From Ligilactobacillus faecis (GTDB lineage Bacteria; Bacillota; Bacilli; Lactobacillales; Lactobacillaceae), in assembly GCF_029889745.1 (NCBI RefSeq), contig NZ_CP123639.1, forward strand, positions 1,717,501 through 1,781,500: a DNA stretch of 64,000 nucleotides, read 5' to 3'. The translations under genes were made by a program, and so were the position numbers. Below the pieces are notes generated by a model. The model saw only the letters and a program-made list of their open reading frames with translations, made no database searches and had not been told where the DNA came from. This document shows, in pieces, positions 9,614-30,976 of the stretch (within the stretch, counting starts at the first letter, position 1; every line of letters starts with the position of its first letter).

Positions 9614-9645
9614 AGGTGGATCGGATGTTTCTGATCCACTTTTTT
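9614..9645 (+). terminator. Intrinsic terminator after the ACT fragment
   Basis: gtggatc pairs with gatccac across a 10-base loop and is followed by six T residues. Confidence 0.65.
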
Positions 9646-9970: not shown

Positions 9971-10029
9971 CCGTCTTAACCTCTGCTCTTATCCTAGTTA
10001 TCATGCCTAGTCACTCCCTCCGTGAATTA

Positions 10030-12737: not shown

Positions 12738-12874
12738 ATAAAAATCATAGTTTGTACATCTAGAAAGAAAGTAGTAGTAATATGTATCAAGAATATTTTG
12801 CAATATATTTAAGCCACTGAACAAAAAGTATTTTTTAGGAAAAATATTTAAAAAATCAATGTGAGGTGTTTATC

Positions 12875-13360
12875 ATGGAAAAGAAATTAGATATTGAATT
12901 AGTTAAAGTTCTAACTCAACCGATAGTTCCGCCAGCGCTACACTATGTGACACCACGAAAGATCATGGGCCAAAGTAAGTGGAATAAGTTGAAAAAAGAA
13001 TATCGCTTATTAGCTGATCACCACTGTATGATCTGTCAACGTTACGTTAGCCATACACCGGGAGACTGGCTAGAACTTCACGAGCGTTATGAGTATGATT
13101 TTGAGAACTTAGTCCAAAAGCTAGTGGGTTACGTCTCGATCTGTCACGAATGTCACATGTTTATCCATCAAGGCTTGTTAAGGATCCAGTTGCAAAGTGG
13201 TGAGATCTCAGCAGAAAATTATCAAAAGATCTTAGATAAGGGTAATGGATTATTACGGCAGTTTGGTTTACAGAAAATTACTTATCCAAATGAAGAAGTA
13301 TTTTTGAGCTCAGATTGGAAGCTAGATTTTGACGGAAAGTTATATGGGGAATATTTGTAA
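12875..13360 (+). CDS. Zinc-finger/HNH-like protein, unknown function
   Basis: A 161-aa protein with two CxxC pairs, CMICQRYV and, about 38 residues later, CHECHMFIH, with LELHERY between them. The Cys-Cys ... LHE ... CxxCH arrangement is that of HNH-type zinc-bound folds. The ATG at 12875 is chosen because it lies 7 bases after gaggtg; a GTG three codons upstream overlaps that ribosome binding site. Codon use (many ATC Ile codons, GATC-rich) is host-like, unlike the GmrSD gene before it and the BREX genes after it, so it may be an older resident gene or a nuclease accessory. No function is assigned. Confidence 0.55.
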   Translation: MEKKLDIELVKVLTQPIVPPALHYVTPRKIMGQSKWNKLKKEYRLLADHHCMICQRYVSHTPGDWLELHERYEYDFENLVQKLVGYVSICHECHMFIHQGLLRIQLQSGEISAENYQKILDKGNGLLRQFGLQKITYPNEEVFLSSDWKLDFDGKLYGEYL

Positions 13361-13515: not shown

Positions 13516-14118
13516 ATGGTTAAAAAAATATATAGTGCCGGTCTAGTTTCACGAAGATTCTGGTTTTATGAATTTAAGCAATATATAAATATGCTTAATG
13601 AAGGAAAAACTGATGTGGAAATTAAACATTTGAATGAAGAAGCTAATATTTTTGGTGCTGTTAGCCAGAATCGAGCAAGGGATATTTATAATACCTGTAA
13701 GAGAAGAACTGAAATTTTAGGGAATGATATGCAAAAATTATTTCCGGAATTGGATATTGATAATCAGAAAATAATACTACTAATAGCAGTATTATTGTTA
13801 GATGACTTATTTCTTGAATTTGTGGGGGAAGTTTATCAAATGCAAGTACAAAAGGGAATTCTGACATTAACTAATACTGACTATAAGGCTTTTTTTTCTG
13901 AAAAGCAAAGAACTAATGATATAGTTTCTACCTGGAAACCATATACATACAGCCGATTAGGTAGTAGCTATCGCACATATTTGCTTGAAGTAGGTCTTAT
14001 TCGTGATAATAAAGTACATGATATTATTACGCCAAAGATTATTGATATTAAAGTGATATCTTGGTTGAGAGATATAAATCGTTGGGATATTGCTAAGGCA
14101 TTGATCGGAGGAAATTAA
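13516..14118 (+). CDS. brxA: BREX protein BrxA
   Basis: A 200-aa protein, the usual BrxA length, first in a type 1 BREX operon. It carries the family pattern YSAGLVSRRFWFYEFKQYI near the N-terminus, SQNRARDIYNTCKRRTEIL, and a C-terminal winged-helix-like part with WKPYTYSRLGSSYRTYLLEVGLI. BrxA is a small NusB-like DNA-binding protein whose exact role in BREX is unsettled. The ATG follows ggagag. The gene is 3 bases from brxB and so translationally linked. AT-rich codon use marks the start of the acquired island. Confidence 0.9.
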   Translation: MVKKIYSAGLVSRRFWFYEFKQYINMLNEGKTDVEIKHLNEEANIFGAVSQNRARDIYNTCKRRTEILGNDMQKLFPELDIDNQKIILLIAVLLLDDLFLEFVGEVYQMQVQKGILTLTNTDYKAFFSEKQRTNDIVSTWKPYTYSRLGSSYRTYLLEVGLIRDNKVHDIITPKIIDIKVISWLRDINRWDIAKALIGGN

Positions 14119-14121
14119 AAG

Positions 14122-14709
14122 TTGAAAAAAACGTTGGAACAGAGTTTTTCTGTGCTTGATAATACGATTAAATCTGATGATTTTCTAACAAATAGAGGAC
14201 TTGGAAATGAGGTGGGATATTATATTTTTGATTATGATCCTAAAGATGAGTTACGAGTTAGAGATCATGTTCGAGAATTAGAAAATAGGAATTTACCATC
14301 AGCTGATGGTTATATTCTTCAAGTATTTAATCTGTATAAGATTATGATGGATCTACTTGAAAGTAAAAAGTACTTAAATATAATTGAGAAGTGGGAAAAA
14401 AAACACGACATTATGTTTATTGCTACTCGAATAAATAGACTGTTGAAAATGGAAGAGTTTGATGATAGTGAAATGTACTTTACAAAGTATATTACAGACA
14501 GAGTGCAGGAAAATTCGGTAGTTATTTTGACTGGTATAGGTGAAATATATCCATTAGTTAGGGCTCATTCTGTTTTAAATAAGATGCATCTAGTTTACAC
14601 TAAGAGACCAGTTATTATGATGTATCCAGGTGAGTATGATCGATTAAGGTTAACTATACTAAATACAAACAGGGATGCTAACTACTATAGAGCTTTTAGA
14701 ATTCATTAG
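14122..14709 (+). CDS. brxB: BREX protein BrxB (DUF1788)
   Basis: A 195-aa protein with DUF1788/BrxB features: NRGLGNEVGYYIFDYDPKDEL, SADGYILQVFNLYKIMMDLL, VVILTGIGEIYPLVRAHSVL and PVIMMYPGEYD. It starts at TTG (14122), 9 bases after ggagga at the end of brxA. BrxB is required for BREX defence in type 1 systems; its biochemical role is unclear. It sits between brxA and brxC in canonical order. Confidence 0.9.
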   Translation: MKKTLEQSFSVLDNTIKSDDFLTNRGLGNEVGYYIFDYDPKDELRVRDHVRELENRNLPSADGYILQVFNLYKIMMDLLESKKYLNIIEKWEKKHDIMFIATRINRLLKMEEFDDSEMYFTKYITDRVQENSVVILTGIGEIYPLVRAHSVLNKMHLVYTKRPVIMMYPGEYDRLRLTILNTNRDANYYRAFRIH

Positions 14710-14721: not shown

Positions 14722-17700
14722 ATGAAAATAAATGAAATGTTTTTAAAAGATATTCACAGAAATATTGAAGGGGTTATTACAGCATCCAAATCAAGTTCCG
14801 AACAAATCTATCAAGAACTTGACGAATATGTTGTAACAAAAGAATTACAAAGTCATTTTAGAACTTTTTTTGATGCATATAAAAAGGGTATTACTAGCAA
14901 TACAAGCAAAATGGGTGTTTGGATTCAGGGTTTTTTTGGTTCTGGTAAATCACATTTTCTGAAAATCCTATCTTACATACTTGAAAATAAGGAAATAAAT
15001 GGTAAAAAAGCATTAGATTTCTTTGTTGAAGGTGATGAGCAAACACGCAAGATTAAAGATCCTATGACTATTGCTGATATGGAATTGGCAGTAGATGTTC
15101 CTACGAATGTTATTCTCTTTAATGTAGAATCTAAACATCAAACGGGGATTGAAGAAAAAAATAGTCTAGTAAATGTCTTTTTGAAAGTGTTCAATGATAG
15201 CCTAGGATATTCTACCAATCCAAAGGTCGCTGATCTTGAACGAAGACTTGATAAGGCCGGAAAATACGAAGAATTTAAGCAAGCTTTCAAGGATGAACTA
15301 GGCCTAGAGTGGCTTGATGAAAGACACGAAGTGGATTTTATTCAAGATCCAGTTGTAAATTCTTTAGTAAAAATAGGATTTATGTCGGAGGATTCTGCCA
15401 AAACATGGTTTAACAAATTAGAATCTGAGTATATCATCAGTATTGAAGAATTTGCATTAATGGTTGAAGATTATCTTCAAACAAAGGGAAATAATGAACA
15501 TATTGTCTTCCTAGTAGATGAGATTGGGCAGTATATTGGTGGAAATAGTGATTTAACTTTGCAATTACAAACGATTGTCGAAGAATTAGGAAATAAATCG
15601 CAAGGCAAAGCATGGGTGATTGTAACTAGTCAACAAGCGATTGATAAAATTACTGATATTGCCGGTGCTTCAGCTATGGATTTTTCTAAGATTAAAGGTC
15701 GTTTTGAAACGACTTTATCTCTCTCATCTGCAAATGCAGACGAAGTTATTCAAAAACGTATCCTTGCCAAAAGTAATCCAGCTCAGGAATATTTAGAAGC
15801 TTCATACCCTAATTATGAAAATGATATTAAGTCAATGCTAGTGTTTGAAGAAAGTCCTGAGCTTAAGCTCTATAGTGATGCTAAAAATTTTGCGGATGTA
15901 TATCCATTTATACCATATCAATTTAATTTATTAGCTGATATTTTAACGCAAGTCTCAAAACATTCTATTCAGGGAGCAAACCTCTCGCGTGGTGAGCGCT
16001 CGTTGTTGGCATTTTTTAAGGAAACTGCAGAACGAAATGCAAATAATGAAAGTACGGTGTTAGTATCTTTAGATCAATTCTATCCATCGCTTGAGAAATG
16101 GTTGAATGAAACTGATAATGCGAAAGTAATCAAACAAGCAGAGGAAAATTCACGTATTGTTTCAGATAAAGATGATTATTTTAATGTTGATGTGTTAAAA
16201 GTGCTATTTATGATCAAATATGTAGACCGTAGTATTCGACCTACATTAAATAATATTACGAATTTGATGATTCGTAATATTGATGAAGATAAATTGTCAC
16301 TTAAGAAAAAAGTTGAGTCAGCGCTAAAAATTTTGATCAATGAAAATTTAGTACGCCAAAATTTAGATAGTTATATTTTTCAAACAGATGAAGAACAAGA
16401 AGTTACACGTTTGATAAATAATATCGAAATAAGCGAATCTGACGTTAATAATAGAATTGCACGTGATATCTTAGATGACAAGATAGGACGTAATCAATTT
16501 AACTATAAAAATAAAAATGCAGTAGGACGTGCTTTCGAGAATCGTTATAATTTTATGTACAACTTTTATGTTAACGATTTTGCATATAGAAAAAATAGTA
16601 ATCCTAACTTAGAAGTAAAAGTTATAACTCCAGACTATGTAGAAGTATGGAATAATGAAACACAACTCATTTTGAATAGTACGAAGAACCAGATGTTGAT
16701 TAATTTACCAGTTGATCAAGAATTTATGGATTATGTAAAAACATACTTAAAGGTAGAGAAGTATATTACTACTGCAAGTGTCTCCAGTGCGATTAAAAAT
16801 TTTGTGGCAGTAAAAGCCGAAAAAACAGCTGAAAATCAAGCATTAAATAATTCTATTAATAAACAATTAGATGATTATTTAAAAGAAGCAACGTTCTATT
16901 TTAATAACCAAAAATTAGAAGTTTCTGGTTCAGATTTTAAATCGCATTTAAATGATGCGTTGCAACAGATGGCAAAGCTTGTATACCACAAAAATGATCT
17001 TGTAGATTCAGCAATTTCAGAAGCAGATATAAATAGCCTATTAAAAGACAACGATGGTGAAATTTTAGAACATACAGAAGATAAAAATGTTGTAGATGAT
17101 GTGAAAAGATATATTCAATTACAACAGCAGCAACAAAAAACCGTAACAATGAAAACGTTGCGTAATAACTACCTTAGAGAACCGTATGGATTTGTAAACG
17201 AAGATCTAGAATGGGCTATTGCGAGGTTATTTAAGTCAGGTAATATTAGCCTTTTTAAAAATGCAATACCGCTAGATATGAATTCAGACATTAGTGAAGT
17301 TTCCCAAGCTATTTTTGATCGTAAAAAACCTGAGAAAATTCGAATTGAATTTCGTCAAAAAGCTAATGCTAATCAAAAGAAATTAGTTCGTGAATTAGGT
17401 GAAGAATTATTTCAAAGTAGAAATATTGTTGATGATAATAACGATGATAAGACGCGAGCAAATTTTGTAGAAAAAGTAAGATTTATGATTTCCTCGTTAG
17501 AAAATTTCAAAGATACATCAAAATATTATTATCCGCAATCAAGTGATGTTGATAACGCAATTGAGCTTTTATCAAAAATTGTGAATGTTCGTGATACAAA
17601 ATCATTTTTTGAAGTGTTGACTATTAATGAGGATGAACTCTTTGATTGGGCTGAAGATTATGAAGATATTCATAACTTCCATAAGAGCAATCAAAAGAAG

Positions 17701-18372
17701 ATTTGGGAAAAATCTATTGATTATATTGATCGAGTCGAAGGTGGTACTATTCATGCAACGACAGATAGTATTGAATCGATCATCGAAGATATGAAGAAAA
17801 TCATGAATCAAGTAACACCGTATAGAGATATTCCTAGATTAAGTGAATTGAATAATCAATTTGAAAAAGAGTATACAAACTTTATGGATGAACATTCTGA
17901 TAAAGTTGCTAAGGAACTAAGCGATGTTGAACAATCAGTATTAGACGATTTAGCATCTCGTAATTTAGAGGAAACATTCAAGAAAAATGTGATTCAGGAG
18001 TTTGACAAGTTAAAAGCTAACTTAGAATATGCAAAAAATATAGACCAAGTAATATTAATAGAAGCTCAGGCAGAGCCGTTAAAACATAAGTTTCTCCAAT
18101 CATTTACGCTTGAAGAAAATCGACAACGTGAGAAAGCGGCCAAAATGCTAAAGTCGACAGACATTGATACTGAAGTAGAGGAGGATAATATTGCTTCAAA
18201 CAATGCACCTGTCCAACCAATTAAGAAAGTAACAAATGTCTATATGAAAGATTTGATAAAGAGTCGACGTCGGATAAAGAATAGGGAAGATGTGGACGCA
18301 TTTGTAAATGACTTAAAGCAAGAATTACTTGTGAAGTTGAATGATGATAATGAGTTAGATGTTTTGTTGTGA
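14722..18372 (+). CDS. brxC: BREX ATPase BrxC (PglY-like)
   Basis: A 1216-aa P-loop protein, the normal size for BrxC/PglY. Walker A is GFFGSGKSH (about residues 71-79) and Walker B is HIVFLVDEIGQYIGG (about 260-275). IIIIVTSQQ-type sensor residues are represented by WVIVTSQQAID. The C-terminal third is rich in charged helices and coiled coil (for example about 1060-1180). BrxC is the large AAA-like ATPase of the BREX complex, needed for exclusion of phage DNA replication and for methylation. The ATG follows gaagggg 13 bases after the brxB stop. The frame is intact. Confidence 0.92.
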   Translation: MKINEMFLKDIHRNIEGVITASKSSSEQIYQELDEYVVTKELQSHFRTFFDAYKKGITSNTSKMGVWIQGFFGSGKSHFLKILSYILENKEINGKKALDFFVEGDEQTRKIKDPMTIADMELAVDVPTNVILFNVESKHQTGIEEKNSLVNVFLKVFNDSLGYSTNPKVADLERRLDKAGKYEEFKQAFKDELGLEWLDERHEVDFIQDPVVNSLVKIGFMSEDSAKTWFNKLESEYIISIEEFALMVEDYLQTKGNNEHIVFLVDEIGQYIGGNSDLTLQLQTIVEELGNKSQGKAWVIVTSQQAIDKITDIAGASAMDFSKIKGRFETTLSLSSANADEVIQKRILAKSNPAQEYLEASYPNYENDIKSMLVFEESPELKLYSDAKNFADVYPFIPYQFNLLADILTQVSKHSIQGANLSRGERSLLAFFKETAERNANNESTVLVSLDQFYPSLEKWLNETDNAKVIKQAEENSRIVSDKDDYFNVDVLKVLFMIKYVDRSIRPTLNNITNLMIRNIDEDKLSLKKKVESALKILINENLVRQNLDSYIFQTDEEQEVTRLINNIEISESDVNNRIARDILDDKIGRNQFNYKNKNAVGRAFENRYNFMYNFYVNDFAYRKNSNPNLEVKVITPDYVEVWNNETQLILNSTKNQMLINLPVDQEFMDYVKTYLKVEKYITTASVSSAIKNFVAVKAEKTAENQALNNSINKQLDDYLKEATFYFNNQKLEVSGSDFKSHLNDALQQMAKLVYHKNDLVDSAISEADINSLLKDNDGEILEHTEDKNVVDDVKRYIQLQQQQQKTVTMKTLRNNYLREPYGFVNEDLEWAIARLFKSGNISLFKNAIPLDMNSDISEVSQAIFDRKKPEKIRIEFRQKANANQKKLVRELGEELFQSRNIVDDNNDDKTRANFVEKVRFMISSLENFKDTSKYYYPQSSDVDNAIELLSKIVNVRDTKSFFEVLTINEDELFDWAEDYEDIHNFHKSNQKKIWEKSIDYIDRVEGGTIHATTDSIESIIEDMKKIMNQVTPYRDIPRLSELNNQFEKEYTNFMDEHSDKVAKELSDVEQSVLDDLASRNLEETFKKNVIQEFDKLKANLEYAKNIDQVILIEAQAEPLKHKFLQSFTLEENRQREKAAKMLKSTDIDTEVEEDNIASNNAPVQPIKKVTNVYMKDLIKSRRRIKNREDVDAFVNDLKQELLVKLNDDNELDVLL

Positions 18373-18395: not shown

Positions 18396-21146
18396 ATGGA
18401 TAAAAAGGTAATAAAAAAATTTGCTATAGAATCTCGGATAAAACTTCGAGATGGAGTGATCAATAAGCTAGCAAAATTAGGCATTACAGATAAGGGAATT
18501 GAAGAAGTAGTAAAAATTGGAAATGATACTATTGAAATCCCATCAAATGGCGAACGATTTGTAGGAAAAGATGTCGAAAAGCGTGTAAAATTAGTCAAAG
18601 TACTAAAAGAACATGAGGACCAAGTTGATTCAAGAGAAAAGAATAGAGAATCCATAGCTTTTGATAATTTCGTAGAAGAAGTTGCTTATACGTGGTTCAA
18701 TAGATTGATAGCAATTCGCTTTATGGAAGTAAATAACTATTTACCAGGAAAGTTACGGGTTTTATCTAGTGAAACAGGTGTTAGAGAACCAGATATTATT
18801 ACTAATTTATTAAGTTCGGATTTATATTCTGAGATGGATATCAATACTCAAAATAGAGTAGTTGAACTTATGTCAGATAATTCAGCAGATGCAGTCGATG
18901 AATTGTATCAATTAGTATTTATTAAGCAATGTAATAGCTTAAGTAGGCAACTGCCTGATCTGTTTGAACATATTGATGATTATACAGAACTATTATTTAC
19001 AATTTCATATATCGATAATAATGGCGTTATTGCAAATTTATTAAATATTCCCGAATCAGATTTTGATATTCAAAAAGAAGGTCAAGTTGAGATTATTGGC
19101 TGGATGTATCAATACTATAATACTGAGCCAAAAGATAAAGTATTTAGTCGAGGTAGACGCAAGATACGTGCAGATGAGATTCCAGCTGCAACGCAGTTAT
19201 TTACTCCTGATTGGATTGTACGATATATGGTGGAAAATTCTCTTGGACGCTATTATATTGATATGAAATTATCTAATCCAACAGAAACGAGAACAGAAAA
19301 AGAAATTGCAGAAAGTTTTGGTTGGAGGTATTACTTACCTACTGCGGAACAACCTGAAGATGTCCAATTAAAAATTCTAGATGATCGTAAGAATAAAAGT
19401 GATATCGTTCTACAAGAGTTAAAACTCTTAGATAACGCAATGGGATCTGGCCATATTTTAGTTTATGCTTTCGACGTCTTCATGCAATTATACGTTGCAG
19501 AAGGTTTTCGAGAAAGAGATGCAGCATTGTATATTATAGAAAATAATATATACGGGTTGGAAATTGATAAGCGCGCATACCAGTTGGCCTATTTTGCAAT
19601 TATGATGAAGGGTCGAGAATATAATCGTAGAATTTTAAACAAAGATGTAAAATCACATCTTTATCGATTTATTGATTCTGCTAATATTCCAACTGAATAT
19701 TTTGAGCGTTTAGAAGAACTGTCTACACTAAATAATACGGAAACTGCTAAAAATTTATCAGAACTTAAATCACTATTCAATGAGTTTAAATATGCTACTG
19801 AACTTGGATCTGTAATCAAAATTAGCAATATTAATTTTGAACGAGTTAATGAATTAAAAAAATTTATTAATGTATTCAACGAATTTTCAAATATGGATAT
19901 TTTGTACCAAATACCTGAAGCTCACGAGAAAGTAACATTGATCTTAAGTATCGTTGAGTTACTTACATCAAAGTACACAGCGATTGTTACAAATCCTCCA
20001 TATCTAAATAAGATGAGTTCAACTTTGGATAAGTATGTTAAGCAAAACTATCCTGATGTAAAAACTGACTTATTCTCAGTTTTTATTAAAATGAATAGTC
20101 AAATGCTCGTTAAAGATGGCTATGCTGGATTTATGACACCCTTTGTTTGGATGTTTATAAAATCTTATGAGGCACTTCGAACTTTTTTGATAACAAGTAA
20201 AAGTATCTCTAGTTTGATACAATTTGAATATTCTGCTTTTGAAGAAGCAACCGTTCCAATTTGTTGCTTTACCATTAAAAATTCAACATCAGAGCCAGTT
20301 GGTAGCTACTTTAAATTATCTGATTTTCGTGGCGGGATGTCTGTCCAAAACGAGAAAGTATTGGAAGCCATTAAAAATCCAAATGTAGAATATTTTTATA
20401 ATACTAGTCAACAAAATTTTGAAAAGATACCAGGAATTCCAATATCGTTTTGGGTAAGCGAAAATACCATAAGATTATTTCAAAAAGAGACAATTGCAGA
20501 TTATGGATTTGCTGGAATAGGTATGAGGACCGGGGATAACGAGAGATTTCTTAGACGTTGGTTTGAAGTGTCATCAATTAATTTCAACTCTAATTTAACT
20601 GATATAGACAATCAAGAAAATTGTGATAAATGGTTACCCTATAATAAGGGCGGAGAATTCAAACGTTTTTACGGAAACAATGAATACGTCGTTAATTGGC
20701 AAAATAACGGATATGAAATAAAGAAAGCCACAAGAGAAAAATATCCACAATTAGGTAAGAATTTGGGTTGGAAAATAAGTAATGAACATTACTATTTAAA
20801 ATCTGGAATTACATGGACTGGAGTTTCTACGGGAAAATTTAATGCGCGTAAATATCCTATAGGATTTTTATTTGATTCTGGAGCAAATGGTTTGTTCTGC
20901 TATGATAAATCTAAAGAAAACTATATTTTAGGATTACTAAACACAAAAACGACTAACTGGCTATTACAATTAATAAATCCAACTATTAACTATGGAGCAG
21001 GTACAATAAGAAAGATACCTGTAATTTATAAACCAGAAATTAAACCTAGGGTTGATTATTTAGTCAATTCACTATATATAAATACTATCGTAGATTGGGA
21101 TAGCAGTGAAATATCATGGAATTTTAAATTACACCCATTAGTCTGA
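18396..21146 (+). CDS. pglX: PglX DNA methyltransferase, expressed variant: constant N-terminus plus variable cassette
   Basis: A 916-aa BREX adenine-specific methyltransferase lacking the usual C-terminal domain. The N-terminal part (1-340) includes the PglX helicase-like/entry region and RRKIRADEIPAATQLFTPDWIVRYMVEN. SAM motif I is LLDNAMGSGHI (about 345-355), the catalytic motif NPPY is at about 532-535, and a target-recognition region follows (about 690-915). It ends WDSSEISWNFKLHPLV, exactly where complete PglX proteins continue with another roughly 300 residues; that missing part is the separate gene at 24667-25602. A 27-bp inverted repeat (19400-19426) lies just before motif I, so everything after residue 343 is in the invertible block. 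The ATG follows aggag. Motif I reads DNA rather than the DPA/DPS of most relatives. Confidence 0.9.
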   Translation: MDKKVIKKFAIESRIKLRDGVINKLAKLGITDKGIEEVVKIGNDTIEIPSNGERFVGKDVEKRVKLVKVLKEHEDQVDSREKNRESIAFDNFVEEVAYTWFNRLIAIRFMEVNNYLPGKLRVLSSETGVREPDIITNLLSSDLYSEMDINTQNRVVELMSDNSADAVDELYQLVFIKQCNSLSRQLPDLFEHIDDYTELLFTISYIDNNGVIANLLNIPESDFDIQKEGQVEIIGWMYQYYNTEPKDKVFSRGRRKIRADEIPAATQLFTPDWIVRYMVENSLGRYYIDMKLSNPTETRTEKEIAESFGWRYYLPTAEQPEDVQLKILDDRKNKSDIVLQELKLLDNAMGSGHILVYAFDVFMQLYVAEGFRERDAALYIIENNIYGLEIDKRAYQLAYFAIMMKGREYNRRILNKDVKSHLYRFIDSANIPTEYFERLEELSTLNNTETAKNLSELKSLFNEFKYATELGSVIKISNINFERVNELKKFINVFNEFSNMDILYQIPEAHEKVTLILSIVELLTSKYTAIVTNPPYLNKMSSTLDKYVKQNYPDVKTDLFSVFIKMNSQMLVKDGYAGFMTPFVWMFIKSYEALRTFLITSKSISSLIQFEYSAFEEATVPICCFTIKNSTSEPVGSYFKLSDFRGGMSVQNEKVLEAIKNPNVEYFYNTSQQNFEKIPGIPISFWVSENTIRLFQKETIADYGFAGIGMRTGDNERFLRRWFEVSSINFNSNLTDIDNQENCDKWLPYNKGGEFKRFYGNNEYVVNWQNNGYEIKKATREKYPQLGKNLGWKISNEHYYLKSGITWTGVSTGKFNARKYPIGFLFDSGANGLFCYDKSKENYILGLLNTKTTNWLLQLINPTINYGAGTIRKIPVIYKPEIKPRVDYLVNSLYINTIVDWDSSEISWNFKLHPLV
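19400..19426 (+). repeat. Inverted repeat A, left copy (inversion site in pglX)
   Basis: 27 bases, beginning tgatatcgttctacaagag, identical to the reverse complement of 23534-23560. It encodes DIVLQELKL directly upstream of SAM motif I in both orientations and in the same frame. The flanks diverge at the DNA level at once (cttagataac versus tattgatcct), so the exact identity ends where the recombination site would. Confidence 0.9.
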
Positions 21147-21151
21147 TTTAG

Positions 21152-21496
21152 TTTCGTTGTAGGGAAACGAATGGATGAATTGGTAACTCCAAAACAAGGA
21201 CTTGCAACTGCTGATAATAATAGATTTCTACGTGAATGGTGGGAAGTTGATTTAAATAATATTAAATTTGATGCGACCTCTACGGTAGAGGCTGTAGCTT
21301 CTGGTAAAAAATGGTTTCCATATAATAAGGGAGGCTCATTCCGTCGTTGGTATGGTAACTATGATTATGTTGTTAACTGGGAAAATGACGGCTATGAAAT
21401 AAAACATTTCGTTGATGATAAAGGAAAACAGCGGAGCGTTGTTCGAAATCCCAGTTATTACTTCAAAGAAGCGATAACATGGTCAGATGTAACTAG
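21152..21496 (+). repeat. Inverted repeat B, left copy (nested, imperfect)
   Basis: 345 bases that align without gaps to the reverse complement of 22175-22519. Identity is perfect over 89 bases (21231-21319) and high over most of the rest. It encodes part of the target-recognition region (YNKGGSFRRWYGNYDYVVNW). Recombination here would exchange the last roughly 105 codons between the partial cassette on this strand and the silent cassette on the other. Confidence 0.8.
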
Positions 21497-21806
21497 CTCT
21501 AATTTTTCATTACGATATAGATCTTTAGGTAGTATACATGATGTAAAAGGAATGGAAGCATTTGAAGAAGCAGGGAAAAATTTGTATTATATTTTGGGCG
21601 TTCTTAATACTAAAATAGGTAATTATATTTTTAAATTATTAAATCCAACAATTAGCTTACAAATCGGTAATTTTCAATCTTTTCCAATGATCATTCACAA
21701 TAAAAAACAAACAGAAACTATAGCTAGAAAAAATGTTCTTTTATCAAAATGTGATTGGGATTCGTCGGAAAAATCTTGGGAATACAAGCGTTCACCACTA
21801 ATTTAA
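21171..21806 (+). pseudogene. Silent partial pglX cassette (target-recognition tail)
   Basis: A 211-codon open frame beginning MDELVTPKQGLATADNNRFL and ending WDSSEKSWEYKRSPLI, homologous to the C-terminal part of the minus-strand silent PglX cassette and more distantly to the expressed one. It lacks SAM and NPPY motifs and has no convincing ribosome binding site (only tagggaaacga before ATG), so it is probably not a protein on its own but a spare recognition tail that can be moved by recombination at repeat B. It begins 24 bases after the expressed pglX stop and ends at the shared terminator. Confidence 0.75.
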
Positions 21807-21853
21807 AGAAAATGCGGACAAAGGTTCAATTGGCCCTTATCCGCATTTTCTTT
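21805..21853. terminator. Bidirectional terminator between the two silent pglX tails
   Basis: A perfect 14-bp stem (aaagaaaatgcgga with tccgcattttcttt) is extended inside by aagg/ccctt. It has A and T tracts on both sides. It lies within a few bases of the symmetry centre of inverted repeat B, so it terminates whichever pglX cassette points at it in either orientation. Confidence 0.85.
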
Positions 21854-21855
21854 AA

Positions 21856-23533
21856 TTATATTAGTGGATGCTTTTTTGCGTTTATCCAACCTGTTTCCTG
21901 GCATAGCCAGTCATGTTTGCTTATAGCTATACATTCTTCGGTTTTATTTATTATATTATCCATTGTAATGTTATCAAGTAGTGTTGGAAAAAGTGAAACG
22001 TAACCTATATGCATATGAATTGTTGGATTAAGAATTTTAAATATATAATTTCCAACTGGTGTATTTAATAACCCTAATAAATATAACTTGTCTTCAAAAG
22101 AATTACTAAATGCTGAATGACCAGTTGAATCAAAAATACTTCCACTTTCACGATAGCGCATTGAAAAATTTCCACTAGTTACATCTGACCATGTTATCGC
22201 TTCTTTGAAGTAATAATCCGTATTTTGAGGCCTCGATCGAAGTTTTCCCTTATCATCAACGAAATGTTTTATTTCATAGCCGTCATTTTTCCAGTTAACA
22301 ACATAATCATAGTTACCATACCAACGGCGGAATGAGCCTCCCTTATTATAAGGAAACCATTTTTTACCAGAAGCTACAGCCTCTACCGTAGAGGTCGCAT
22401 CAAATTTAATATTATTTAAATCAACTTCCCACCATTCACGAAGGAATTGCTCATTATCTCCAGTTTGTAATCCAACCTTTGGAGTTACCAATTCGTCCAT
22501 TCGTTTCCCTACAACGAAATCATGAATTAAGTTTTCGCTTACCCAATACGAAATCGGCGAACCAGGAATTTTGGCAAAGTTATCTTGAGACGTATGGTAT
22601 AAATAATCTACACAAGGATTTTTTATGGCTTCAACTGTCTGAGTTTCTTTAAGAGCCGGATTGTTGAAATCTACTAATCTTAAATAGTTACAAGTATATT
22701 TCTCGTAATTAGTAGGCGATACCACAAAGGCAGTAGTCTGGACCACCTCACCGTTTATTTCTTCAAATGCATTAGTTCCTAAATGAAGCATATTAATAAT
22801 ATTTTGAGAGTTCATCTTAAAACGTAATTTTTCAAAACTAGATAGAAACATCCAGGAATGTTGAGTTATTAGTGAATAATATCCTGTTGTTCCATCAACC
22901 ATTTGACTAATGCGTTCTATAAAGACATTACATAAATCATTCTTACTGTCTGCATAGTGTTTTGACACAAATTTTTTTAGTGTAGCATTCATTCCCTTAC
23001 TTCCCATATAAGGAGGGTTAGTAATTGCCACATTATATTGTTGTTGTAATAACTCGCCAACATATACCATATCTTTAATTATCGGATCGTATAGTGATAA
23101 AGTTTCCGAGTTTAAACCTTTTTTCAAGTTTTTAAAGTCAATTCCATCGAATTGTATTAATGAGCCTAGATCTGCACCATACTTAAAACTGTCAGCTAGT
23201 GTCAATAAATCTTTTTCTGCTTTTTTTCTATCTGGAAAAGTTATCGGTAATAATTGAAAGTCCGCTTCATCAATATTCAAATTTCCTGGTACTGCGTAAA
23301 TATTTAGGCTAATATTCCTAGATAAAATTCGTCGAGAATATTGTCGACCTTTCATCATTAGCGCAAAATAAGTTAACTGAAAAGCACGTTTATCAATATC
23401 TAAACCGTAAAGATTTTTCGTAAGGATAAATTCAACGGCATCACGTTCACGAAAACCTTCTGCTACATAGAGTTGAATAAACAGATCAAATGCATAAACT
23501 AAAATATGACCTGAACCCATCGAAGGATCAATA
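21856..23533 (-). pseudogene. Silent pglX cassette in reverse orientation (catalytic domain plus recognition tail)
   Basis: An open frame of about 558 codons starting inside inverted repeat A and reading LKLIDPSMGSGHILVYAF (motif I with canonical DPS), then NPPYMGSKGMNATLKKF (motif IV), a recognition region with YNKGGSFRRWYGNYDYVVNW, and ending CQETGWINAKKHPLI. It has no start codon with a ribosome binding site and lacks the PglX N-terminus. Inversion between the two repeat A copies would fuse bases 18396-19426 in frame to this cassette, giving a 902-aa PglX. About 70 percent of the motif I-TRD region differs from the expressed version, so specificity would change (inference). Confidence 0.85.
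22175..22519 (-). repeat. Inverted repeat B, right copy
   Basis: The partner of 21152-21496; the 89-base perfect core is 22352-22440. A further 15-bp perfect match to the expressed pglX (20450-20464 against 22532-22546, ttgggtaagcgaaaa) lies just outside it and could be a minor third crossover point. Confidence 0.8.
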
Positions 23534-23560
23534 AGTTTTAACTCTTGTAGAACGATATCA
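23534..23560 (-). repeat. Inverted repeat A, right copy (overlaps recombinase stop codon)
   Basis: A perfect 27-bp reverse complement of 19400-19426. Its outermost three bases are the TGA stop codon of the recombinase gene, so inversion leaves the recombinase intact in both orientations and always just outside the inverted block. Confidence 0.9.
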
Positions 23561-24493
23561 TTTTAAGAAGGCTTGAGTCATAATTTTCATGATCAGTTTT
23601 GTTTCTCGTTCTTCCATTTCTTTAATGATGTGAAGATAAACACTCTGAGTTGTCGTTACATCTTTATGACCAAGACGTTTGCTAACACTTAGAATATTAA
23701 CTCCTTTAAATAATAAAATAGATGCGTGTGTATGTCGTAATCCATGGAATGAAACTGGAGTGATCCCAAGTTCATAGCATAGATTTTCAAGATAACGGTT
23801 AATAGTTGCGCTAACAGGGAGTTTTCCGTTGTTGTCAATACAAATTTTTTGATCGGGATGATTAAATTTATTTAGGCGAAGTCTTAACTTTATAACTCGA
23901 AGTGTTGTTAAATCAACGTCAATAGTTCGGATGGAACTCGAATTTTTAGTAGGTTTGAATCCAGTATGATATTTGTAATCCCACGTTTTATTAACTGTAA
24001 GAAGCTTATTTTTAAAATCAATGTCCTTGACTGTTAAACCAAGAACTTCAGAAAATCTTAGTCCAGTCATTGCAGAAAGATAGATGATGAAGTCATAGGA
24101 ATTAGAAGAGCTTTTTGTAGCATTGATCAGCACTTGCCATTCGTGATAAGAAAGAAACATAGCTTTTTGATTATTTTTTTCTCTACCAGATATAATTGCT
24201 TTGCGAGTAAAGTCAGATGATATGAGTCCTTCTTCAAGGGCGTCAATAACAGCAGCACGAACCTGCTTATGAAAACCAGCAGTTGTTCGTTTAGCATGTG
24301 TTTTTGCAAAATTATTGAGTACAGCTTGGTATTTTTGACGAGAAACTTGAGAGATCTCAAGTGATCCAAAATTATTTTTGATATGCTGATGTGTATTTTG
24401 ATATTTTACATAAGTTACAGGAGAGACTGCAGGTTTTTTGAATGTTTCCATCCACTGATAGAAATATTCTGCTAATGTTAATTTTGTCGTCAT
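23558..24493 (-). CDS. Tyrosine recombinase, probable pglX invertase
   Basis: A 311-aa phage-integrase-type recombinase. The N-terminal SAM-like core-binding domain spans about 1-110 and the catalytic domain follows with Arg in TGLRFSEVLGL, Lys in the beta-hairpin region, HGLRHTHAS, GHKDVTTTQ and the nucleophile Tyr in VYLH. The ATG at 24493 (MTTKLTLAEYF) is chosen because aaagga lies 8-9 bases upstream; an in-frame ATG three codons earlier abuts that site. Its position at the edge of the invertible block, with its stop codon inside repeat A, argues that it catalyses the inversion. Similar recombinases beside duplicated pglX genes have been reported in other lactobacilli. It is unlike a prophage integrase in having no phage genes or tRNA site nearby. 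Confidence 0.88.
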   Translation of the reverse strand: MTTKLTLAEYFYQWMETFKKPAVSPVTYVKYQNTHQHIKNNFGSLEISQVSRQKYQAVLNNFAKTHAKRTTAGFHKQVRAAVIDALEEGLISSDFTRKAIISGREKNNQKAMFLSYHEWQVLINATKSSSNSYDFIIYLSAMTGLRFSEVLGLTVKDIDFKNKLLTVNKTWDYKYHTGFKPTKNSSSIRTIDVDLTTLRVIKLRLRLNKFNHPDQKICIDNNGKLPVSATINRYLENLCYELGITPVSFHGLRHTHASILLFKGVNILSVSKRLGHKDVTTTQSVYLHIIKEMEERETKLIMKIMTQAFLK

Positions 24494-24603
24494 AAAAATC
24501 ATTCCTTTCTTTTGAAGACCAAAGTAACTGTGATTGAAAAAAGAGTACCACTAAGTACAAAATAGTTCTCGAAAATTGTCTTCATAATAAGCAATAATGA
24601 GTA

Positions 24604-25612: not shown

Positions 25613-28156
25613 ATGTCAGACTTAAATTTAAGTCAGATCCAAAAGAGATTAAATGAGCTTTTTGTAACTTATGGAGAACGAAAGCTCATATTTTGGTTTG
25701 ATCCTAAAAAAGAATTTGAAGAAGAAATTGATAGTGAACAAATTAAGTTGGATGATGCGAAAGTGTATAAGCTTGAAGAGCATTGCCAATTCATGGCTAA
25801 ACGCTTTTTTGAAATTGAAGATACGAAGAATAATTACCTTATTTATGCTCCATTTGAAAAAATTGGAAATGATGATGAAAATAATCATCTTCTAAGTGTT
25901 TTGAAGTATTCTGAACAATTTAGTGCAGATCGCATTTCGATGGTTATGAATCAGCTTGAAATTTCAACAGATTTACGCGATGTTATGGAACAATATTCTA
26001 AATTTTTTGAAGCCAAAGTACGTATTTCTGCTTTTGAAAAATTAGCTCCATCAAAAATAAATTCAAAAGAAGAACTAGAGATGACGATACTAGCTGTTTT
26101 AACTAAATCTAATACAACACAATTTTATAGTATTGTTCAAGCACTAATTGTAGAATATGCTCGGGGATCTAGCGAATTTTATGAGCAACTAACAAAATTT
26201 AATTTGCAGGAGGTATTTTGGAATTATATTGATAGATATTATGGATATGTTTCAGATAAACCGACAATTCAAAAATTAATAATAGCATTTTACGTCAATG
26301 CTTTTTATGGGCAGTTAGGCTATCAAGAATTACCACAGAGTCTAAAGGAATATGAAGTCTTAGATCAAACTACTGCGATTGTGTCATTTATGGATAGTAT
26401 GATGAATGATTCGCGTTATTTGACAGAATTTAATAAATTAAGCGAAAATGTCTATCTCTTAATTGGCGGAGATCGAGTGATAGATAAGATCCCTGTTGAA
26501 AAACTTCTTGTGGCAGATATCTTCGAGGCAACGCATACCAAAATCATACAATATAGCATAGGTCAATTGTTGAGTGGAGATAAAACACCAAGCATCAATG
26601 ATAGATCTTTAGCAGATATAGTTAAAGATAGAGAAAGGTTACATTTTGGTGAACAGTATGTTCATCACTATGAATCTATCTCAAACGCACAGCGGCTATT
26701 GAGTAGTGTAACCAATATTATTACTGATAACTTTTCGATTTTTGTTAAAGAATATGAAGAATCAATCTATCTAATAGATCAGTATTATCGGAATTTTATA
26801 TGGCATTTAGACAGTATTACTGACGATAGAGATTTTGCAAAACTTCAAGAAGTAATTGAGAATACTTACAGTCAATTTTTGGATGAAAGTGCAGATCAGT
26901 GGAATGAGTCCTTGTCACTTAACGAAAGACTATCTGTATTAGATTTCTATGATAACTTTGCTAGAAGTAAAACAAAAACGGTAGTAATTATATCTGATGC
27001 ACTTCGGTATGAAGCAGCTAAAGAACTCCAAGAAAAATTACAAAGTCAAAAGAAACTATTGACAGATATGAAAACTGTATTTTCTGTAATACCATCAGTA
27101 ACGGAATTTGGAAAGGCTGCATCTATACGGAGTGGAAGCGAAACATATGAATATATCGATGGAATAGATGTTCGAGTCAATGGACTAAAAACACAAGGAA
27201 CAAAAGCGCGCGATAAAATATTGAAAGAGAAAAATCAAAATAATTTGGCAATAGCTTATTCTGATGTTGTTGCTAAAAAAAATGCTAAAGAACTCCGAGA
27301 AATATTTAATGGGAAAGAACTAATTTATCTGTATCATGACCAGATAGATAAGACTGGTGATCATGGCCAGGAGGCACAAGTTTTTGATGCTACTAAAAAA
27401 GCAATCGATGAAATAAAAGCATTAATAACATTTATTTCAAATGGAGCTAATGTTTCACGATTTATAGTTACAAGTGATCATGGTTTTATTTATAAGCGCT
27501 CTAGTGTTAAAGAATATGAGAAAATAGAAAATCCGTCTAAATTAAAATCTGATAGGGTGGAGAGACGTTTTATTATTAGTGAAAATCGTTATACTGAACT
27601 GGGAATTGAGTCTATGAGTTTGGGTGATACACTGAAAAATAATGATGAACGTTATATTCATTTTCCTAAAACTGCAGCTATATTTAAAAAGGCTGGTGGA
27701 GGGCAAAACTATATTCATGGTGGTTCCTCACCTCAAGAAATGTTAATTCCCGTATTAGAGGTCAATGTTGCCCGTGGTTCTTCTCAGAAAGAAGCTGTTA
27801 CTGTACGCTTAACAAGAGCTCCAGAAAATCATAGAATTACAGGTTTATCTGTTACATTAGAGTTTTATCAAACTGAAGAAATTAGTGACTCAGTTGATAA
27901 AATGCAGTATTTACTTTATTTTGAGGATGCACAGGGAAATTTAATAACTAATCAAAATAGTTATTATGCTGATTCAACATCTAAACAGTCGAGTGATAGA
28001 TTTACCAAATTTACATTTGATTTTATAAATCGTAATTATGAGCAAAATGAAAAAGTTTATTTAGTAATGAAGGACAATGAGACAAAAATAGAATCGAATC
28101 GCATAGAATTTTTCATTGATAATCCATTTGCTGGTGGTTTTGGTTTTGATATTTAG
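25613..28156 (+). CDS. pglZ: BREX protein PglZ (alkaline phosphatase superfamily)
   Basis: An 847-aa protein with a PglZ alkaline-phosphatase-like domain: metal-site segments VVIISDALRYEAAKEL (about 457-472) and FIVTSDHGFIYKR (about 620-632), plus YHDQIDKTGDHG between them. The N-terminal half is a helical BREX-specific region. PglZ is essential for BREX; it is a predicted phosphodiesterase/nuclease acting on nucleic acid or nucleotides. The ATG follows aaggagga. The stop is 10 bases before the brxL GTG. Confidence 0.92.
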   Translation: MSDLNLSQIQKRLNELFVTYGERKLIFWFDPKKEFEEEIDSEQIKLDDAKVYKLEEHCQFMAKRFFEIEDTKNNYLIYAPFEKIGNDDENNHLLSVLKYSEQFSADRISMVMNQLEISTDLRDVMEQYSKFFEAKVRISAFEKLAPSKINSKEELEMTILAVLTKSNTTQFYSIVQALIVEYARGSSEFYEQLTKFNLQEVFWNYIDRYYGYVSDKPTIQKLIIAFYVNAFYGQLGYQELPQSLKEYEVLDQTTAIVSFMDSMMNDSRYLTEFNKLSENVYLLIGGDRVIDKIPVEKLLVADIFEATHTKIIQYSIGQLLSGDKTPSINDRSLADIVKDRERLHFGEQYVHHYESISNAQRLLSSVTNIITDNFSIFVKEYEESIYLIDQYYRNFIWHLDSITDDRDFAKLQEVIENTYSQFLDESADQWNESLSLNERLSVLDFYDNFARSKTKTVVIISDALRYEAAKELQEKLQSQKKLLTDMKTVFSVIPSVTEFGKAASIRSGSETYEYIDGIDVRVNGLKTQGTKARDKILKEKNQNNLAIAYSDVVAKKNAKELREIFNGKELIYLYHDQIDKTGDHGQEAQVFDATKKAIDEIKALITFISNGANVSRFIVTSDHGFIYKRSSVKEYEKIENPSKLKSDRVERRFIISENRYTELGIESMSLGDTLKNNDERYIHFPKTAAIFKKAGGGQNYIHGGSSPQEMLIPVLEVNVARGSSQKEAVTVRLTRAPENHRITGLSVTLEFYQTEEISDSVDKMQYLLYFEDAQGNLITNQNSYYADSTSKQSSDRFTKFTFDFINRNYEQNEKVYLVMKDNETKIESNRIEFFIDNPFAGGFGFDI

Positions 28157-28166
28157 GAGGACTTCA

Positions 28167-30197
28167 GTGGATCAATTTATTCTAGATAAGTTAGTAGAGA
28201 ACTTCCCAGGGAAAATAGTTCGTAAAGACTTAACAAAAAAGATCAAAGAAGGAGCCAATGTTCCAGTTTATGTATTAGAGTATTTGCTTGGAATGTACGC
28301 TTCTTCATTAGATGAAGCACTGGTAGAAAAGGGAGTCGAAAATGTAAAAAATATTTTGTCCCGCAATTATGTTCGACCAGATGAGGCTGAGAAAATAAAA
28401 GCAAAAATTCGTGAAAATGGTAGCTATACAGTTATTGATAAAGTCAGTGTCTCACTAAATGAATGGCAGGATCAGTATGAAGCGGAGTTTTCTAATTTAG
28501 GTTTACGTGGTGTTCGTATTAGCAACGAATATCTTCAGAAATATGATCGTTTATTAGGAGGCGGGATTTGGTGTATCATTCAAATGGAATATCAATTTGA
28601 TGAAAATGATCCAGTAAATTCTCCATTTATTGTTAAGAAAATAGATCCTATCCAAATGCCAAAATTAGATATCGCAGAATTTAAAAAAAGCCGTGAATCT
28701 TTTACAGAAGAAGAATGGATTACTGTTCTTCTGCGTTCTATCGGTATGGAACCAACTGAATTTGATGAACGAGTTAAGTGGTTGCATTTAGCTAGATTAG
28801 TTCCATTAGTTGAGAATAACTTTAATTTATGTGAGTTGGGTCCACGAGGTACTGGAAAATCACATGTCTATAAAGAAATATCTCCCAATTCTATTTTAGT
28901 GTCTGGAGGGCAAACTACAGTAGCTAATCTATTTTATAACATGGCACGACGAACGATGGGATTGGTTGGCCTGTGGGATACAGTTGCATTTGATGAAGTT
29001 GCGGGTATAAATGTAAAGGATGGAGATTTAGTTCAAATAATGAAAGACTATATGGCTTCAGGATCATTTGCTCGTGGAAAAGAGGAAAAAAATGCTTCTG
29101 CCTCAATGGTATTTGTTGGGAATATTAATCAAAGTGTAGATGCTTTGTTAAAAACTTCAAATTTGTTTGAACCATTTCCAGAAAAAATGGGGATGGACTC
29201 GGCATTTCTCGATAGAATTCACTGCTATCTTCCGGGATGGGAAATCCCTAAGTATCGTCCTAATTTCTTTACAAACGATTATGGCTTGATTACTGATTAT
29301 TTTTCAGAAGTAATGAGGGAGTTACGTAAAACAACATACAGTGACGCCATTGAAAAGTATTTTAGATTTGGATCTCAGCTAAACCAAAGAGATACAATAG
29401 CTGTTAAAAAAATGGTATCAGGATTGATAAAATTAGTATACCCACATGGTGTTTTTGGAAAAGAAGAAGTTGAAAAATGTCTAAAATTTTCGTTGGAGAT
29501 GCGACGAAGGGTTAAAGAGCAACTTAAAAAAATTGGTGGAATGGAATTCTTTGATGTAAATTTATCCTATATTGATCTAAAAGATAATCGTGAAGAGTAT
29601 GTCTCTGTCCCCGAACAAGATAATGAAAATTTGATTCCAGAAGGAATTGGAAAACCTGGTCATGTATATTCTATTTCAACTGGTAATGGGGGAAGAGTTG
29701 GAACGTTTAAGCTTGAAACTCAAATTGTCACAGGAAATGGAAAGTTCAAGGCGATAGGTTTGGGAAGCGATATGACCGCTAAGGAAAAAGCGTATTCGGC
29801 ATATAAGTATTTAAATGCAAATGCTGGAGCGATTAGTTCGCAAATAACGACAACTAAACATGATTTTGTGGTTAATGTGCAAGATTTAAATGGCATAGGC
29901 AATCCGAAAGCTTTAACTTTATCGACAACGATAGCATTGTGTTCAGCAATCTTAAAAAGACCTGTTATCTCAAGTGTAGTTATTTTAGGTGATATTACAA
30001 TTGGGGGAACACTTATAAAAGTAACTAACTTTGCGGATATGATGCAAGTTGCACATGATGTTGGTGCTAAGAAAATTCTTGTACCTACATTAAACAAAGG
30101 TGATCTAGCCGATGTTCCAACAGAGATAATGGCAACTAATATTATCTTTTATGATACGCCAGAGAGTGCAGTGTTTAAGGCATTGGGTGTAGAGTAA
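28167..30197 (+). CDS. brxL: BREX protein BrxL (Lon-like AAA+ protein)
   Basis: A 676-aa protein beginning (GTG) MDQFILDKLVENFPGK. The GTG at 28167 is chosen because it is 6 bases after aggagg; the frame stays open a further 17 codons upstream inside pglZ but without a ribosome binding site. Walker A GPRGTGKSH is at about 226-234 and Walker B VAFDEVAGI at about 272-280. A C-terminal Lon-protease-like domain (about 520-676) includes the DLNGIGNPKALTLST and VVILGDITIGGTL segments. BrxL forms a ring-shaped DNA-binding AAA+ assembly and is the last gene of type 1 BREX operons. The type 1 assignment rests on brxA, brxB, brxC, pglX, pglZ and brxL all being present. Confidence 0.92.
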   Translation: MDQFILDKLVENFPGKIVRKDLTKKIKEGANVPVYVLEYLLGMYASSLDEALVEKGVENVKNILSRNYVRPDEAEKIKAKIRENGSYTVIDKVSVSLNEWQDQYEAEFSNLGLRGVRISNEYLQKYDRLLGGGIWCIIQMEYQFDENDPVNSPFIVKKIDPIQMPKLDIAEFKKSRESFTEEEWITVLLRSIGMEPTEFDERVKWLHLARLVPLVENNFNLCELGPRGTGKSHVYKEISPNSILVSGGQTTVANLFYNMARRTMGLVGLWDTVAFDEVAGINVKDGDLVQIMKDYMASGSFARGKEEKNASASMVFVGNINQSVDALLKTSNLFEPFPEKMGMDSAFLDRIHCYLPGWEIPKYRPNFFTNDYGLITDYFSEVMRELRKTTYSDAIEKYFRFGSQLNQRDTIAVKKMVSGLIKLVYPHGVFGKEEVEKCLKFSLEMRRRVKEQLKKIGGMEFFDVNLSYIDLKDNREEYVSVPEQDNENLIPEGIGKPGHVYSISTGNGGRVGTFKLETQIVTGNGKFKAIGLGSDMTAKEKAYSAYKYLNANAGAISSQITTTKHDFVVNVQDLNGIGNPKALTLSTTIALCSAILKRPVISSVVILGDITIGGTLIKVTNFADMMQVAHDVGAKKILVPTLNKGDLADVPTEIMATNIIFYDTPESAVFKALGVE

Positions 30198-30781: not shown

Positions 30782-30884
30782 TGAAAAAGGAGCTAGTAGC
30801 TGCAACTACTAACTCCGGACGTGGATTATTAAAAGTATTGGTTGAGGCTAATCATGATTGTTATAATCGTGATTGGCTTTTTTT
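30782..30884 (+). ncRNA. Candidate antisense small RNA, module 3
   Basis: A 5' hairpin (ggagctagtag/actactaactcc), the element acgtggattattaaaag shared with module 2, and a terminator (ggctaatcatgatt/aatcgtgattggc plus T7). Stem sequences differ from modules 1 and 2 while pairing is kept. A near copy of the shared element occurs at 31022-31038 in the leader of the opposite peptide mRNA. Confidence 0.5.
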
Positions 30885-30976
30885 ATTATCATATAAGCAT
30901 GAGCGATACTTAGTGACAGCTCTGAAAAGCTGTGCACTAGTCTTGGCAATGCTATGATAATATAGACGACAAGCAA
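30848..30976 (-). CDS. Small hydrophobic peptide, candidate type I toxin, module 3 (42 aa)
   Basis: A TTG start at 30976 lies 7 bases after agagg. The peptide begins MLVVYIIIALPRLVHSFSEL and ends AYMIIKKANHDYNNHD. The hydrophobic VYIIIALP segment is shared with module 2 and the AY..IKKAN end with module 1, so the three peptides are paralogues. The 3' end overlaps the small RNA terminator on the other strand. No longer start with a good ribosome binding site exists. The 31051-31238 stretch behind it holds only inverted-repeat-like AT-rich sequence. Confidence 0.4.
   Translation of the reverse strand: MLVVYIIIALPRLVHSFSELSLSIAHAYMIIKKANHDYNNHD

Follow-up and report, generated by a model that had tools for sequence, protein, structure and literature searches.

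A candidate site-specific switch in Ligilactobacillus faecis that would rebuild the BREX-1 methyltransferase PglX from cassettes and complete it with a separate C-terminal subunit

We analyzed a 64,000-nucleotide stretch of the Ligilactobacillus faecis genome (contig NZ_CP123639.1, positions 1,717,501 to 1,781,500, hereafter the window), which contains a type 1 bacteriophage exclusion (BREX) locus with inverted repeats and a recombinase gene at its methyltransferase gene pglX. With a probability of about 0.8, we read this locus as a site-specific switch that rebuilds PglX from cassettes, the protein being completed by a separate C-terminal subunit. In the proposed mechanism, a tyrosine recombinase would invert the DNA between the two copies of an inverted repeat (repeat 1) and place one of two cassettes, each consisting of a methyltransferase (MTase) half and a target recognition domain (TRD), behind a constant N-terminus. 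An inversion at a second repeat at the MTase/TRD hinge (repeat 2), mediated by the same recombinase or by homologous recombination, would swap the TRD of the cassette for a spare TRD. Three PglX cores of 916, 902 and 899 amino acids (aa) could be read in this way. All cores end after the TRD, and a single constant C-terminal subunit, whose gene directly precedes pglZ and brxL, would complete them in trans, probably docking through the spacer helices on either side of the point of division. A population would then include members with different self-marking and phage-exclusion specificities.

Inverted repeats, recombinase and reading frames

The type 1 identity of the BREX locus, proposed in a first-pass annotation of the window, was confirmed by Pfam and PADLOC matches to brxA, brxB, brxC, pglX, pglZ and brxL, all in one cluster (Table 1). 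Every part of a PglX of BREX type 1 is present, distributed over two genes: the N-terminal domain, the MTase domain with the GxG and NPPY motifs, the TRD and the C-terminal domain. The expressed pglX gene (18396-21146) ends after the TRD and covers positions 1-869 of the 1174 positions of the PADLOC profile PDLC02521. Its constant part comprises the N-terminal helical domain and the start of the MTase domain. The silent cassette, with an open reading frame (ORF) at 21856-23520 of 554 aa, has neither the N-terminus nor the C-terminal domain.

The first-pass annotation had also described a perfect 27-bp inverted repeat immediately before motif I of both pglX copies. We recovered this repeat 1 at the same positions, next to the motifs LDNAMGSGH and IDPSMGSGH, and in-silico inversion between its copies turned the 916-aa frame into an open frame of 902 aa, as had been claimed. 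The two copies of pglX are unrelated upstream of repeat 1 and homologous downstream of it (127 nt at 80% identity, repeat included). The identity of repeat 1 exceeds chance: all eight full codons inside the repeat are identical, as compared to 17 of the 36 same-amino-acid codons that come next after it, and at that rate eight identical codons in a row have a probability of about 0.0025 (codons taken as independent, M and W excluded). A matching repeat in three relatives is perfect within each genome (24, 22 and 50 bp) and differs between the genomes.

The gene adjoining the cassettes encodes a tyrosine recombinase, as annotated (Pfam PF00589). The R-H-R-H-Y residues R149, H253, R256, H279 and Y289, which we take to be catalytic, are present, and the protein is 45-50% identical to the recombinases of eight loci in which the C-terminal domain is fused to the rest of PglX (fused loci, as opposed to split loci such as that of the window). 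Because its stop codon TGA (23558-23560) falls within repeat 1 and survives inversion, the recombinase is still 314 aa long after in-silico repeat-1 inversion. This protein is presumably the agent of an inversion that would be ongoing in the strain. By eye, an ATWTCGYT-like half-site can be made out in both repeats and at the site near the C-terminal domain in fused relatives, but a recombination core common to the three is not claimed.

The first-pass annotation described a single switch; its repeat-1 switch stood, and a second one, consisting of repeat 2 and a spare TRD, had been missed. The 24 perfectly matching base pairs of repeat 2 are the start of a 278-nt inverted repeat at 92% identity, with one copy at the MTase/TRD hinge of the silent cassette and the other at the start of the spare TRD piece. 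In-silico inversion at repeat 2, then at repeat 1, yields a third open frame of 899 aa, which has the MTase half of the 902-aa form and a different TRD. The frames are open and the recombinase is intact in all three states. The spare piece (21171-21806) is not read as a gene in its own right, since its only match is to the TRD stretch of PglX and its start falls inside repeat 2. A weak AGGG lies ahead of its ATG, so that separate translation is possible, and the corresponding ORF in genome G062 opens upstream of the repeat.

The G062 locus has the same layout and a 24-bp repeat, but here the repeat-2 site lies in the expressed gene with the spare TRD facing it. By its gene order, this arrangement would be the state expected after a repeat-1 flip. 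A shortened spare TRD without repeat 2 was found in Lactobacillus sp. UCMA15818 (G122), and neither a spare TRD nor repeat 2 is shown at the locus of Enterococcus lemanii (G466).

Cassette positions in related loci

In the four complete split loci, one set of MTase halves, here called alpha, is expressed in the window and in G122 and silent in G062 and E. lemanii, that is, expressed in two loci and silent in two. These halves are 64-71% identical to each other and belong to a clade that has a support of 0.977 in the tree with the fused relatives. The other halves, silent in the window and G122 and expressed in G062 and E. lemanii, are 53-68% identical to each other and 38-47% identical to the alpha halves. 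They are not one clade, since the half of G062 falls among fused relatives and separately from the other three. In G122, the TRD joined to the expressed alpha half shares 74% identity with the silent TRD of the window, suggesting that TRDs move too. No stop interrupts the silent MTase halves of the four loci, and the proportion of nonsynonymous differences (pN) between them is within the range of the expressed ones.

Exactly one alpha and one other half were found in 15 of 23 recombinase-bearing loci, with alpha expressed in 8 and silent in 7. The remaining eight were excluded from this count for carrying two non-alpha halves (Lacabsia, G058, G021) or two alpha halves (G115), or because only one half (G047, G198b) or none (G156, G193) was extracted; the split loci L028 and L031, which have a recombinase and are cut by contig ends, are outside the 23. 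On the tree of the 15 loci, the expressed/silent label changes 6 times, as compared to a mean of 5.28 (standard deviation 1.00) in shuffles, which suggests that it is distributed like shuffled labels. Both cassette positions thus occur across species, in split and in fused loci. Of 40 further stretches, 11 have the recombinase; four of the 40 repeat the loci of Leuconostoc inhae, Levilactobacillus hammesii, Lacticaseibacillus hegangensis and E. lemanii. The first-pass annotation had considered it unusual that the swap takes the catalytic motifs along, a view that did not hold within this group, as the full silent cassettes of the fused relatives likewise span motif I to the TRD plus part of the N-terminal region. 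These relatives have repeats in the N-terminal part and at the hinge, and several also have them between the TRD and the C-terminal domain.

Close pairs of fused-type loci display the rearrangements directly. G058 and G089 belong to one genus and G200 to another genus of the same family. G058 and G200 are 97.9% identical up to the N-terminal part, after which the expressed core of G058 matches the inverted silent cassette of G200 over 2,077 bp at 96.9%; the segment of C-terminal domain and recombinase is collinear. The junction in G058 reads like two sides of G200, that of the cassette and that of the C-terminal domain, put together within a 13-bp stretch which they share. Between G200 and G089, a 2,236-bp segment (90.8%) with the C-terminal domain and the recombinase is inverted; its sides are collinear over 3,843 bp (91.9%) and 3,817 bp (95.9%), and the adjoining TRDs are unmatched. 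G058 and G089 differ by both rearrangements.

A plasmid comparison covered four of five stretches, the fifth (L. plantarum M8) listing one pglX with no recombinase adjoining. Between the L. plantarum K25 and L. brevis TMW 1.2108 plasmids, also of the fused type, the flanks are 99.0 and 99.5% identical and the middle segment is collinear (94.3%), whereas the MTase halves are swapped: expressed matches inverted silent over 1,362 bp at 98.1%, and the reciprocal match extends over 1,823 bp at 90.9%. Two of the L. brevis plasmids do not differ over this stretch. The order seen in K25 recurs in L. plantarum SRCM103426, with collinear parts at 97.0, 94.6 and 97.6% and both TRDs unmatched. In the L. 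plantarum plasmid stretches L151 and L152, the unmatched TRD stretches are located at about 5675-6411 and 8627-9075 of L151, and the collinear parts are 95-98% identical. Recognition domains thus appear to be replaced also without a flip.

Such a replacement, as between K25 and SRCM103426, is what homologous recombination or gene conversion between the repeats could produce, with the recombinase as a bystander integrase. The hinge repeats are long enough in several loci, perfect over up to 251 bp in L087 and 278 nt at 92% in repeat 2 of the window, to be consistent with this explanation of the cassette exchange. However, in all but one of the four complete split loci repeat 1 is just 22-27 bp long, a related recombinase lies beside the cassettes in split and fused loci alike, and the junction between similar loci falls within the 13-bp stretch. 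We consider it unlikely that the cassettes are exchanged by this route.

A further alternative is that inversion turns BREX on and off rather than changing its specificity, the silent cassette being a dead end. In the fused relatives G089 and G047, the C-terminal domain is parted from the N-terminus and the expressed core lacks it, an arrangement that is possibly an off or intermediate state, as judged from the gene order. In the stretches concerned (L120 of G089, 2731-9636; L025 of G047, 1-5004), the C-terminal domain is on the reversed cassette and the expressed gene ends after the TRD. Broken silent cassettes are also found in the fused relatives L. hammesii, G071 and G115, and phase variation of pglX is on record in passages of two papers (PMC9122589, PMC11341690). 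For the window, this explanation is improbable: the frame stays full, with motifs and TRD, after either flip, the inverting segment does not include the separate C-terminal gene, and both cassettes are open in the four split loci.

The free-standing C-terminal domain

The first-pass annotation had taken the 916-aa gene for a whole PglX. Our analysis corrected this, as the gene lacks the C-terminal domain, which forms a gene of its own outside the inverting segment, with a TTG start preceded by GGAGG and a distance of 10 bp to pglZ. The expressed gene, the silent cassette and the spare piece all end at position 869 of the PDLC02521 profile. In E. coli BrxX, the N-terminal domain comprises residues 1-210, the MTase domain 211-650, the TRD 651-837 and the C-terminal domain 838-1205, according to an excerpt of PMC11842806, and in Salmonella PglX two spacer helices extend over residues 850-960, according to one of PMC11341690. 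The alignment of the window core extends to residue 885 in Salmonella PglX and to residue 869 in E. coli BrxX, which places the division about 30-40 residues past the TRD, in the spacer-helix region.

The metal-site residues D997, D999, I1001, D1012 and Y1113 of BrxX correspond to D104, D106, I108, D119 and Y216 in the C-terminal ORF, as read off by hand. The predicted structure of the C-terminal protein has a mean predicted local distance difference test (pLDDT) score of 85, with residues 25-55 below 50, and a Foldseek template modelling (TM) score of 0.79 (by query) to BrxX (9ewz). The core model has a pLDDT of 79.8 and a TM score of 0.77 (by query) to 8c45, and its last long helix spans residues 883-899.

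The C-terminal domain was identified in 27 of 201 genomes of the family sample, of which three (the window, G122 and G062) carry it as an open frame of its own, 312-318 codons long; three further stand-alone domains are broken or cut by a contig end. In the order sample, it was found in 35 of 395 genomes and alone in three (the window, G062 and G466). A scan of named genomes, in which 80 of 158 relatives were kept, revealed a separate C-terminal gene beside a recombinase in four loci: a metagenome-assembled genome (MAG) contig, Lactobacillus sp. UCMA15818, E. lemanii and a Streptococcaceae MAG, two of these loci being cut by contig ends. Another eight of the 80 loci are fused, with recombinase and silent cassette, and six have a separate C-terminal gene and no recombinase in the examined stretch; all six are MAGs, and one stretch is only 4.4 kb. 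In these six (L042, L044, L048, L069, L073, L107), the core and the C-terminal domain are apart, with other small ORFs between them. From these arrangements, the split may have arisen more than once. Loci with interrupted or short frames (L037, L041, L055, L057, L063, L076, L091) were left out of the split count, and contig ends truncate several more. In L089, two weak matches to the recombinase at a distance from pglX were disregarded.

Taken over the samples, the stand-alone C-terminal gene adjoins a recombinase in at least five species, including UCMA15818, G062, E. lemanii, the Streptococcaceae MAG and the other MAG contig, and these recombinase-linked copies are 66-86% identical to the window copy. 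The pN of the gene is 0.10-0.19 at saturated synonymous differences (pS). Ratios of dN to dS were unusable at this saturation (pS 0.69-0.79), and pN and intact frames were relied on instead. That the split is a decayed gene, with a truncated core, a remnant C-terminus and an inactive BREX, as the 916 aa might suggest beside the mostly 1,160-1,220 codons of pglX in fused relatives and the 1,205 and 1,225 aa of the solved structures, is very improbable given this recurrence in other species and low pN, the fact that every full cassette in the window and three relatives, expressed or silent, ends at the corresponding place, and the occurrence of a separate C-terminal gene in the six MAG loci without a recombinase.

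We lean slightly towards a model in which one constant C-terminal subunit serves every core and each of at least three states is active, so that the split form would be a pure specificity shuffler without off states. In the fused relatives, with two sites, half of the flip combinations would leave PglX without the C-terminal domain. The split form without an off state would thus differ from a fused form with one.

The first-pass annotation had proposed that the cell alternates between methyltransferases and between specificities. Genome comparison supports the invertible pglX well, and the change of specificity is soundly argued, because the TRD is exchanged and PglX has been published as the specificity factor (passages of PMC11341690 and PMC11842806). 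The motif would be expected to change between states, and the two pieces of PglX to assemble.

Several observations weigh against the reading as a site-specific switch. The support for inversion comes from in-silico frames and the genomes of relatives, and the recombinase is linked to the repeats by position only. Repeat 2 is part of 278 nt at 92% identity, so that homologous recombination could swap the TRDs. In the close pairs, the reciprocal cassette of G058 and G200 is unmatched, and the direction of the C-terminal domain and recombinase is kept both in G058/G200 and in K25/TMW 1.2108, which means that two flips or another route would be needed. Among the fused relatives, the silent-cassette frames end early in L. 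hammesii, G071 and G115, and only part of the silent cassette was found in G198 and G156. Finally, in a passage of PMC11341690, the authors could not express the C-terminal part of their own PglX (TRD included) alone, and an assembly test of a split PglX was not found among the titles, abstract starts and passages of the literature matches.

Locus map, known systems and meaning

Table 1. Features of the BREX locus, in window coordinates.
Feature	Coordinates	Strand	Evidence
brxA	13516..14118	+	Pfam PF08849 E 3.4e-46; PADLOC BrxA
brxB	14122..14709	+	Pfam PF08747 E 5.4e-32; PADLOC BrxB
brxC	14722..18372	+	PADLOC BrxC, residues 1-1212
pglX constant N-terminal part (343 codons), through inverted repeat 1	18396..19426	+	
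Inverted repeat 1, left copy	19400..19426	+	27-bp perfect match to 23534-23560
Expressed variable core: alpha MTase half with GSGH and NPPY, TRD	19427..21146	+	Tree; PADLOC
Inverted repeat 2, left copy	21152..21175	+	24-bp perfect match to 22496-22519
Spare C-terminal piece, TRD only, 211 aa	21171..21806	+	PADLOC PDLC02521 659-869 of 1174, E 3e-76
22-nt stem (91% complementary), 9-nt loop, possible two-way terminator	21803..21855	.	Repeat search
Silent reversed cassette: non-alpha MTase half (GSGH, NPPY) and TRD	21856..23560	-	PADLOC PDLC02521 316-869; tree
Inverted repeat 2, right copy	22496..22519	-	24-bp perfect match to left copy
Inverted repeat 1, right copy; contains recombinase stop codon	23534..23560	-	
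Tyrosine recombinase, 314 aa, presumed invertase	23558..24502	-	Pfam PF00589 E 4.3e-26
Free-standing PglX C-terminal domain, 311 aa	24667..25602	+	PADLOC PDLC02521 878-1165 of 1174, E 3.1e-120
pglZ	25613..28156	+	Pfam PF08665 E 6.1e-44
brxL	28116..30197	+	PADLOC BrxL, residues 22-693

The stem-loop listed in Table 1 sits between two converging stop codons. A promoter and terminator scan, from which nothing was drawn, gave 49 promoter-like sites as compared to 36.3 (standard deviation 6.2) in shuffles, and 4 terminator-like sites as compared to 2.8. Upstream of brxA lies a gene for a GmrSD-type (DUF262) type IV restriction enzyme (10809-12623, plus strand; Pfam GmrSD_N and GmrSD_C); in the L. 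plantarum and L. brevis plasmids, the DUF262 gene is located downstream of brxL instead. Between the GmrSD gene and brxA, a 164-aa ORF (12866-13360, plus strand) had no Pfam, PADLOC or NCBIfam match at E 0.001. Paired direct repeats at 9777-10042 and 30784-31045, about 21 kb apart, flank the BREX cluster (60 nt at 80%, 36 nt at 89% and 26 nt at 96%) and may mark the ends of a mobile island. No tRNA genes were found in the window. Near the end of the cluster, a gene for a TnpB-family RNA-guided nuclease (31759-33021, minus strand), with a Rfam Transposase-1 RNA (RF03014) just downstream, is flanked by two ORFs (31293-31688 and 33276-34121, plus strand) that match different parts of Fic (SoFic), the C-terminal part first.

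An invertible pglX switch in lactobacilli is of a known kind. Goldfarb 2015 is reported to have described an inverted pglX in the BREX locus of L. rhamnosus GG. In L. rhamnosus LRHMDP2/3, according to a passage of PMC7513527, a site-specific integrase separates a full from a partial PglX, in an arrangement analogous to that of L. rhamnosus GG. The recombinase class and the cassette arrangement of these lactobacillar switches are the same as in the window. However, the full PglX of LRHMDP2/3 measures 1,198 aa in that passage, long enough to include the C-terminal domain, whereas this domain is a separate gene in the window. The window further differs from L. rhamnosus in that its recombinase gene follows outside the silent cassette and that a spare TRD is present, equipped with an inverted repeat of its own. 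The L. casei Zhang BREX (Hui 2019, 2022) is likewise a lactobacillar BREX-1 with a second methyltransferase gene, to go by the titles (PMC12707154). E. coli BrxX (9ewz) and Salmonella PglX (8c45) share their domain order and fold with the window PglX, but are single chains of 1,205 and 1,225 aa, whereas the window PglX consists of two genes, divided after the TRD in the spacer-helix region.

In hsdS inverting systems, a recombinase swaps recognition parts of an expressed gene with those of a silent one. An example among Type I restriction-modification systems is the pneumococcal cod locus with PsrA (PMC11709252). Such systems resemble the window locus in how they work, but in the window the catalytic methyltransferase half would move together with the recognition domain, and the genes are those of BREX rather than hsdS, hsdM and hsdR. 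Duplication or phase variation of pglX is mentioned in passages of PMC11842806 and PMC11341690. The main text of a 2026 BREX survey of 8,475 taxa (PMC12839542) does not contain the terms recombinase, invert, split, integrase or Lactobac, and no description of a split PglX or a free-standing C-terminal subunit was present among the literature matches listed, as far as their titles, abstract starts and passages extend. Within that scope, a C-terminal subunit on a gene of its own and a second, nested switch set the locus apart from the known lactobacillar switch.

PglX marks self DNA, in type 1 systems by N6-adenine methylation of a 6-bp site, and a change of PglX alters protection and exclusion alike. 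The locus suggests a population that holds several BREX specificities at once through two nested flips, and it suggests that PglX can work as two polypeptides. The natural split offers a way to approach the function of the C-terminal domain, an open question in the field, as the catalytic gene could stay untouched while the domain is deleted, exchanged or titrated. With flanks 99% identical and opposite MTase halves, the L. plantarum K25 and L. brevis TMW 1.2108 plasmids form a ready pair for a methylome comparison.

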